Below, in pieces: positions 24,986 to 25,775 of a stretch of 64,000 nt of DNA. Each line of letters begins with the position of its first letter. Position 1 is the first letter of the stretch. Position numbers and translations under genes: made by a program. The notes under the pieces are model-generated. The model saw only the letters and a list, made by a program, of their open reading frames with translations. It did no database searches and was not told where the DNA came from. The DNA comes from Tildeniella torsiva UHER 1998/13D (GTDB lineage: Bacteria > Cyanobacteriota > Cyanobacteriia > Phormidesmidales > Phormidesmidaceae), in contig JAHHIH010000027.1 in the NCBI GenBank assembly GCA_019358835.1, forward strand, positions 1-64,000, read 5' to 3'.

Positions 24986-25017
24986 TTGACTCTACAGCGG
25001 GCTGGAATGTGTAGCCT
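24986..25017 (+). promoter_or_regulatory. MerR-type metal-responsive promoter upstream of the DUF305 gene
   Basis: TTGACT (24986-24991) and TAGCCT (25012-25017) are separated by 20 bases, longer than a normal 17-base spacer. The spacer holds the dyad CTACA-N13-TGTAG (24992-25014) with GGGCTGGAA at its centre. This layout is the mark of CueR/ZntR-type MerR regulators. The coding start is 30 bases downstream. The regulator itself is not in the window. Confidence 0.55.
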
Positions 25018-25046
25018 AAGACCACAAGGCATTTGGGAGATTGACC

Positions 25047-25700
25047 ATGCGATTGAAACGGCCTTTAGCTACGATTCTGGCCCTGGCCACCCTGGTACCG
25101 CTCGCCTCCTGCGGCAATAGGGCAATGGAAGCCATGCACGAAGGAGGTGCCACTGAGGACAGGGCCGAGGAGCCCATGATGCACAGCGGCCACGATATGG
25201 ATCTAGGCCCCGCTGACGCTACCTACGACCTGCGCTTTATCGACGGCATGATTCCCCACCATGAGGGGGCAGTTGTGATGGCCGAAGCGGCACTGGAGAA
25301 TTCTCAGCGCCCTGAAATTCGGCAGCTGGCGGAAGATATTATCGCGGCCCAGCAGGTGGAAATTGCCCAAATGGACGATTGGCGGGCTGAGTGGTACCCC
25401 GATGCCCCCGCCGAGCCGATGATGTACCACGCCGAAATGCGGCATGACATGGCCATGAGCGAAGAGATGATTTCAGCCATGCGGATGGATATGGATTTGG
25501 GCGGGGCCGATGAGGAGTTTGACCTGCGCTTCATCAACGCCATGATTCCGCACCACGAGGGGGCAGTGGCGATGGCGGAGGATCTGAAGGGCAAAAGCCA
25601 GCGTCCTGAACTGCTCAACCTAGCCGATGAGATCATCACCTCACAGCAGGCCGAGATCGATCAGATGACGCAGTGGCGGCAGGATTGGTACGGTCAATGA
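25047..25700 (+). CDS. CopM-like lipoprotein with two DUF305 repeats
   Basis: A 217-residue protein with a lipoprotein signal (lipobox LASC-G near residue 24) and two DUF305 modules. Each reads DLRFI-D/N-xMIPHHEGAV, then a helix ending ADEII-x-x-QQ-x-EI-x-QM. Met and His are unusually frequent in the linkers (MMHSGHDMDLG, MMYHAEMRHDM, EMISAMRMDMDLG). The copper-binding periplasmic protein CopM of Synechocystis is a DUF305 protein, so a role in copper trapping or detoxification outside the inner membrane is likely. ATG 25047 is chosen over TTG 25041 because GGGAGA sits 6 bases upstream. The MerR-type promoter supports metal control. Confidence 0.75.
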   Translation: MRLKRPLATILALATLVPLASCGNRAMEAMHEGGATEDRAEEPMMHSGHDMDLGPADATYDLRFIDGMIPHHEGAVVMAEAALENSQRPEIRQLAEDIIAAQQVEIAQMDDWRAEWYPDAPAEPMMYHAEMRHDMAMSEEMISAMRMDMDLGGADEEFDLRFINAMIPHHEGAVAMAEDLKGKSQRPELLNLADEIITSQQAEIDQMTQWRQDWYGQ

Positions 25701-25706
25701 GTCAAA

Positions 25707-25736
25707 AGCGCTCCCCCAATCGATCGGGAGAGCGCT
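25707..25736. terminator. hairpin between convergent genes
   Basis: AGCGCTC (25707-25713) pairs with GAGCGCT (25730-25736), and inner C- and G-runs extend the stem with one bulge. It lies between the convergent DUF305 and TPR genes, and A4 precedes it, so it could act as a terminator on the minus strand. Confidence 0.55.
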
Positions 25737-25775
25737 CACTTGATGCTTGGGATAATGGCCTACCCTATCGACCGA

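Follow-up and report, generated by a model that had tools for sequence, protein, structure and literature searches.

A copM-type lipoprotein gene of a cyanobacterium probably controlled by a MerR-family copper switch shared with copZA

How does a cyanobacterium decide when to make the copper protein CopM? In Synechocystis sp. PCC 6803 the protein binds copper in the periplasm and in the medium, and its gene is part of the copMRS operon under CopRS (from the accessible portion of PMC4335983). The available text of PMC4182526 adds that CopRS drives copM and copBAC, and not pacS, ctaA or atx1. All three copM homologues tested in Anabaena PCC 7120, all7594, all7633 and all4988, are copper-induced, again according to the accessible portion of PMC4335983. 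A 2025 review, as far as its accessible sections go, regards the copper response as well characterised in Synechocystis only (PMC12292863). The window analysed here, a stretch of 64,000 nucleotides from Tildeniella torsiva UHER 1998/13D (contig JAHHIH010000027.1), holds a copM-like gene whose promoter looks like those served by regulators of the MerR family. We believe this is the gene of a CopM-family envelope lipoprotein that is probably switched by a MerR activator, which we call M2, in response to cytosolic Cu(I) or Ag(I), the same switch serving copZA and M2 itself.

The identity of the gene is the easier part. By ORF calling and family searches it runs from an ATG at 25047 to 25700 on the forward strand and encodes a lipoprotein of 217 aa with two DUF305 modules; a likely ribosome-binding site, GGGAG (25035 to 25039, same strand), can be read directly 7 bases 5' of the ATG. 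The lipobox is LASC and the mature chain begins at Cys22, with 20 Met and 9 His among its 196 residues. Two MIPHHEGAV motifs place HH pairs at 71 and 169. Pfam DUF305 (PF03713) matches at 4.4e-41 over residues 61-210, and the NCBIfam model for CopM family metallochaperones (NF049983) scores 124.6 bits, above its cut-off of 90, in two stretches. A first-pass annotation had described a Met/His-rich, CopM-like protein with two DUF305 modules and the searches bear this out. The closest solved relative is Synechocystis CopM (PDB 5ffa, 5fej; phmmer 2.5e-33, residues 60-217), which, according to PMC4335983, is likewise an exported protein with two DUF305 modules and HH motifs. From homology to 5ffa we infer that the product binds copper, and it would do so outside the cytosol, as Synechocystis CopM does.

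The surroundings of the gene offer no regulator. A divergent ORF of 1332 aa, chlH-like by eye, lies 388 bases from the copM start, and a 138-aa ORF is convergent with copM; we take the neighbours, by eye, to be chlH, a TPR protein and IscA/HesB. Inspection by eye of the ORFs near copM (20-31 kb) turned up no MerR gene and, beside copM itself, no recognisable two-component genes. This differs from Synechocystis, where the gene sits in copMRS under CopRS (accessible portion of PMC4335983); the window gene has a lipobox, a MerR-type promoter and no two-component neighbours by eye. Just 3' of the stop there is a strong hairpin (25707 to 25736, forward strand), perhaps a terminator between the convergent genes. 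The RNA fold of 25700-25750 comes to -21.2 kcal/mol (z -3.57), and none of 200 shuffles folds equally well; the hairpin has no T-run and does not appear in the output of the terminator scan.

Direct reading of the upstream region gives TTGACT at 24986 to 24991 and TAGCCT at 25012 to 25017, both on the forward strand, separated by a 20-bp spacer (24992 to 25011), just as the first-pass annotation had it. MerR-type promoters have a spacer of 19-20 bp and a dyad at a fixed distance from the -35; here the spacer is 20 bp and the dyad centre lies 8 bp after the -35. The accessible text of PMC5045206 describes the sites of MerR and the HMRTR subfamily as 22 bp long with the centre 8 bp from the -35. 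Upstream regions of the orthologues keep TTGAC within a 32-bp element, the 20-bp spacer (a length fixed in our search pattern) and, where the promoter fits that pattern, a -10 of the form YANNNT. A general sigma-70 scan, which permits spacers of 16-18 bp only, does not have the copM promoter in its output. The geometry is the same as that of the E. coli zntA promoter (TTGACT, 20-bp spacer, dyad centre 8 bp after the -35, -10 TATCCT), whereas the spacer of E. coli copA is 19 bp. The promoter had been called CueR/ZntR-type; the MerR type stands, but the geometry is that of zntA and not of copA.

The letters of the operator need more care. The dyad proposed originally was CTACA (24992-24996) and TGTAG (25010-25014) with 13 bases between them. 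The letters are present, but they do not behave as a regulatory dyad. Allowing one mismatch, CTACA-N13-TGTAG is found twice in the window against 0.64 +- 0.79 expected, a count that 13 of 100 shuffles reach, and the genome contains 5 exact copies, where the reversed pattern has one forward and one reverse match. Across 38 distinct copM promoters it is complementary in 106 of 190 pair cells and exact in only 7. We reject it as the operator on the near-chance count in the window and those 7 of 38. A site of the BlaI/CopY type was also set aside; such sites read TACA-N2-TGTA, and the spacing here is 13 with pairs that are not conserved. Pairing among the orthologues, placed in the zntA frame, points to an inner dyad within the spacer, CTACAGC-GG-GCTGGAA (24992 to 25007, forward strand), as the putative operator, with a general consensus of CTCYAGY-NN-RCTRGAG. 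In the 38 promoters 201 of its 266 pair cells are complementary, compared with 39-84 of 266 when the dyad is slid 1-3 bases as a control, and three of the seven pairs are found as both C-G and T-A. The copy in the window itself is imperfect, with 5 of 7 pairs, while the outer CTACA-N13-TGTAG is perfect there (5/5).

If this element is an operator it should be possible to see what else it fronts. As a search pattern we used the 32-base promoter element, drawn from the copM orthologues and the M2 promoter. With up to two mismatches the 5.84-Mb genome has it at three places: before copM (24986 in the window), before a copZA operon (C38:171407) and in the promoter of M2 (C34:184891, with its own reverse at 184887). 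The reversed pattern has one forward and one reverse match under the same rule. It is important to realize that copZA is the sole independent match of the three, because the pattern was built on the copM orthologues and the M2 promoter. A background test on 4000 stretches of 350 bp from the same genome, in which the best match always had at least 4 mismatches and the copM promoter 0, is not independent either since the pattern was drawn from orthologues and the copM site itself. The copZA site lies 28 bases before a gene for a 64-aa HMA-type chaperone, which is followed by a CopA-like P1B ATPase. This ATPase scores 670 bits against a copper-ATPase cut-off of 397. It is above the threshold for the cadmium-type subfamily TIGR01512 too (408.8 versus 313.5), with the copper subfamily far higher. 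Its motifs are CPC, YN and MxxSS, which we presume to bear on a copper-type identity. The chaperone does not reach the cut-off of any CopZ model that it matched, so its naming rests on resemblance and position. Behind copZA is an exported protein of 319 aa with two cupredoxin-like repeats by eye (L181:3603-4562, G000:C38), possibly copper-handling.

The genus gives a broader answer. With one mismatch allowed, 24 of 26 genomes (own included) have operator sites, 79 in total with one place counted on both strands, and the reversed pattern is found 0 times in all 26. Each site was classed on its genome's own sequence by a reference match within 450 bases downstream. The classes are CopA/CopZA 29, CopM 19 (one only 32% identical), MerR 11, multicopper oxidase 9 (two of which start more than 300 bases away, one of them behind a CopM scrap) and other 11, so 68 of the 79 precede copM, copA/copZA, multicopper oxidase or MerR genes. 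Taking the best copM match of each genome, the promoter is kept with at most two mismatches in 18 of the 23 genomes that have one, and 14 of those 18 sites start 61-62 bases before the start codon. The suggestion that copM here has a MerR wiring unlike that of Synechocystis is supported by this conservation and by the element fronting copZA and a MerR gene as well. Five best copM matches have no site. Nodosilinea nodulosa PCC 7104 (G002) is without one, yet its copM is 72% identical, and both M2 and the copZA site are present in this genome; the matches of G007, G010 and G015 are partial, a site in G007 preceding a second copM piece, and that of G020 is 58% identical.

A close M2 orthologue (at least 82% identity) accompanies the copM site in 16 of the 18 genomes; the two without one, G008 and G022, are 83 and 85% complete. 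The M2-type genes themselves carry the element in their own promoter, with up to two mismatches, in 18 of 23 cases across the genus. The four least similar (67-73%) are without it and a fifth has 3 mismatches. Two loci deserve a remark of their own. In L178 (G024:C1:118300-125300) there are three operator copies within 1.8 kb. Immediately behind one of them comes a short piece of CopM and, next, the gene of a multicopper oxidase, which gives the impression of a degenerated copM whose promoter has survived. In Phormidium tenue a Cys-rich protein of 122 aa (L045:2420-2788), copper-storage-like by eye and with no NCBIfam match at 1e-5, shares its neighbourhood with a copM paralogue, a multicopper oxidase and the promoter of a copZA operon.

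The same classes of genes recur outside the genus. An exact search of a phylum sample gave 33 sites in 27 of 291 genomes, own included, and 0 for the reversed pattern. Two sites are in our own genome and two have no locus, which leaves 29 for classing: CopA/CopZA 16, MerR 3, CopM 2, a copper-storage-like protein 1 and other 7. Three of these seven lie in front of a small, secreted, Cys-rich peptide, a fourth has a multicopper oxidase at a distance of 654 bases, and another, with only 740 bases of sequence, has no match. Eight further genomes (Calothrix, Scytonema, Brasilonema and others) were reached through their copM loci, so they were chosen for copM and are not an unbiased set; they hold 21 sites (CopM 10, CopA/CopZA 4, MerR 4, unassigned 3) with a reversed control of 0. 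All eight have an M2-like MerR, the best identities being 35-42%. Phormidium tenue FACHB-1052, Leptolyngbya sp. FACHB-60 and Calothrix sp. PCC 7103 are among the cultured relatives that have the site. Because the same classes recur beyond the genus, the operator has, judged by sequence, long been tied to copper genes and to MerR genes of the same kind, a link seen at exact match in fewer than one tenth of the phylum-sample genomes. At L184 and L185 (G058, G067) and L209 (G315) the operator stands before tiny secreted peptides that are rich in Cys (61 and 55 aa) and look like metallothioneins; at L209 an M2-like MerR gene lies upstream on the opposite strand.

Which protein would bind the operator? 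The first-pass annotation had advised looking for MerR genes elsewhere in the genome. There are five MerR_1 matches, none on C10, and one of them, M2, has the element in its promoter, 26 bases before its gene. M2 is a 140-aa protein of the MerR family encoded at G000:C34:184949-185368, unlinked to copM. It fits none of the named equivalogs. Its score against the CueR model TIGR02044 is 80.6 bits with a cut-off of 147.4, and for ZntR (72.7/167.95), CadR-PbrR (77.6/151.45) and MerR (82.3/150.85) it is below the cut-off as well. Among solved structures its top-scoring relative is 4ua1 ('Regulatory protein'), which we take to be MerR of Bacillus. The cyanobacterial plasmid relatives of M2, among the matches listed, are mostly annotated 'heavy metal-responsive transcriptional regulator'. 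This annotation and the site geometry agree with the HMRTR subfamily (HTH_HMRTR), and the likeness consists of those two points.

The cysteines of M2 are unusual. We aligned it with E. coli CueR and ZntR from database records. Cys82 aligns with ZntR C79, where CueR has Ser, and Cys130 aligns with both CueR C120 and ZntR C124, while M2 has nothing at the position of CueR C112 or of ZntR C114/C115. M2 thus has one half of the CueR Cys112/Cys120 pair, and its specificity for Cu(I) is not evident from sequence because the C112 position is empty. Cysteines stand at both of these positions, Cys82 and Cys130, in all 47 of 47 distinct relatives from cyanobacteria and in the 12 M2-like proteins listed from genomes outside the genus. 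The middle column has no cysteine in any of the 47; the divergent L022 and L086 have extra cysteines, that of L022 including one in the loop. MerR and ZntR use three cysteine positions and CueR two of them, so a Cys82'-Cys130 pair would be the remaining two-of-three arrangement.

Putting these observations together, we propose the following switch. A dimer of M2 would bind the dyad between the -35 and the -10, where the 20-bp spacer would prevent RNA polymerase from forming a productive complex. Cu(I), or Ag(I), in the cytosol would bind to the dimer, probably between Cys82 in one M2 subunit and Cys130 in its partner, and the metal-bound protein would then distort (untwist) the spacer DNA so that transcription starts. 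Activation by DNA distortion on an over-long spacer is established for MerR, CueR and ZntR. The operon of the copper chaperone and P1B-type Cu ATPase and M2 itself would be under the same switch, and since one switch would serve copZA, copM and M2, the export of copper from the cytosol and its buffering in the envelope would rise together. Given the targets that stand behind the operator, cytosolic Cu(I)/Ag(I) is the most likely signal. In E. coli the CueR regulon is copA and cueO. As there, a MerR-family switch would stand before the copper ATPase here, with a multicopper oxidase in relatives, and copM is an addition.

The identity of the metal could be disputed. Zn, Cd, Pb or Co might be the inducer with MerR control otherwise correct, and the 20-bp spacer with its even centre is indeed as in zntA and unlike E. 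coli copA, Cys82 sits at the position of ZntR C79 where CueR has Ser, and the ATPase of the regulon is also above the cadmium-type cut-off. However, the genes behind the operator are copper-like: an HMA chaperone, an ATPase that scores best as copper type, multicopper oxidase, CopM and a copper-storage-like protein. M2 also lacks the middle cysteines present in ZntR and in MerR 4ua1, and a CoaR-like gene with its own P-type ATPase forms a separate locus on C14. Another inducer is quite unlikely in our opinion. CoaR itself was set aside as the copM regulator, being a separate locus beside its own ATPase. The choice of M2 over its relative M1 (C14:23791-24210) is a different matter. M1 is 47% identical to M2, has Cys at both positions and shares a metal-resistance island with two further genes of the CopM family, so it might act alone or together with M2. 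But of the 18 genomes that have a copM site only 9 contain a second MerR match about as close to M2 as M1 is (44-50% identity), as against 16 for close M2, and with up to two mismatches the own genome has no operator site at M1 and one at M2. We consider a role for M1 unlikely, and M2 remains our candidate regulator.

The example of Synechocystis (PMC4335983, accessible portion) would put copM under a two-component system of the CopRS/RppAB type and make the MerR-like promoter incidental; the C14 island does contain an RppAB-type system and a second pair alike by eye. This is hard to reconcile with an element that 18 of 23 genus genomes keep in front of copM and that is found also before copZA and MerR genes, with a reversed control of 0. 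In the same genus, eight DUF305 loci of lower similarity (55-59% identical, G020 being counted again) have no such element within 350 bases upstream, the best having 7 mismatches, and we find two-component control of copM very improbable. That the promoter match is pure chance and copM constitutive seems to us scarcely credible: CTACA-N13-TGTAG is indeed near chance level, but the corrected element is conserved and specific genome-wide. Because the element is common to copM, copA/copZA, multicopper oxidase and MerR genes across genomes, it is most likely that copM belongs to a MerR-controlled copper regulon and not to a CopRS regulon as in Synechocystis. This host probably senses copper inside the cell in order to make CopM, unlike the model species that has been studied.

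CopM, MerR-type promoters and MerR-run copper regulons are each of a kind already known. The literature searched, which was open-licence with subscription papers mostly uncovered, yielded no description of their coupling into a copM-MerR copper regulon, of the spread of the operator among cyanobacteria or of the two-cysteine sensor. In the accessible text of PMC5045206 cyanobacterial HMRTR members are named with no copM target or copper assignment for cyanobacteria. The accessible main text of Permina et al. 2006 (PMC1526738) has none of six cyanobacterial terms, that of the 2025 review (PMC12292863) has neither 'MerR' nor 'CueR', and the available part of PMC4284471 names a MerR homologue for cobalt and none for copper. 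We would extend our argument, tentatively, to a wider claim that may well prove wrong: many cyanobacteria may run a cytosolic copper regulon of copZA, copM, multicopper oxidase and copper storage through a distinct MerR-family copper sensor with a Cys82-Cys130 intersubunit pair and without the middle cysteine. If true, such a sensor would cover what lies outside the reach of CopRS, a system that serves copM in Synechocystis but not the copper ATPases. Other cyanobacterial lineages would then have a cytosolic sensor, one switch would govern both copM and the copper ATPase, and M2, with its unusual two-cysteine site, would be a candidate sensor of Cu(I). As a search probe the operator consensus is sharp, with reversed controls of 0 in the genus, phylum and named-genome searches.

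The metal-resistance island that holds M1 (G000:C14:1-45000; L132, L096, L097) has features of its own. Besides the RppAB-type system and the second pair it has two RND pumps (by eye), a P-type ATPase seemingly split into two frames, the two further CopM-family genes, a multicopper-oxidase-like gene and the CoaR-like gene adjoining a P-type ATPase. Between a CopM paralogue and the oxidase-like gene (L096:8880-9090) the sequence AATTATGAAATAATTATGAAA occurs twice, perhaps as a control element other than a MerR operator, that of a response regulator. Between the divergent CoaR-like and ATPase genes is a promoter with a 20-bp spacer, TTGACATTGACACTAATGTCAAGGTTTAGGGT (L097:1327-1358). On the minus strand at L096:11680-11711 a TTGACT-20-TACCTT stretch with a poor dyad (by eye) faces a short secreted peptide frame adjoining M1, and may be the operator of M1.
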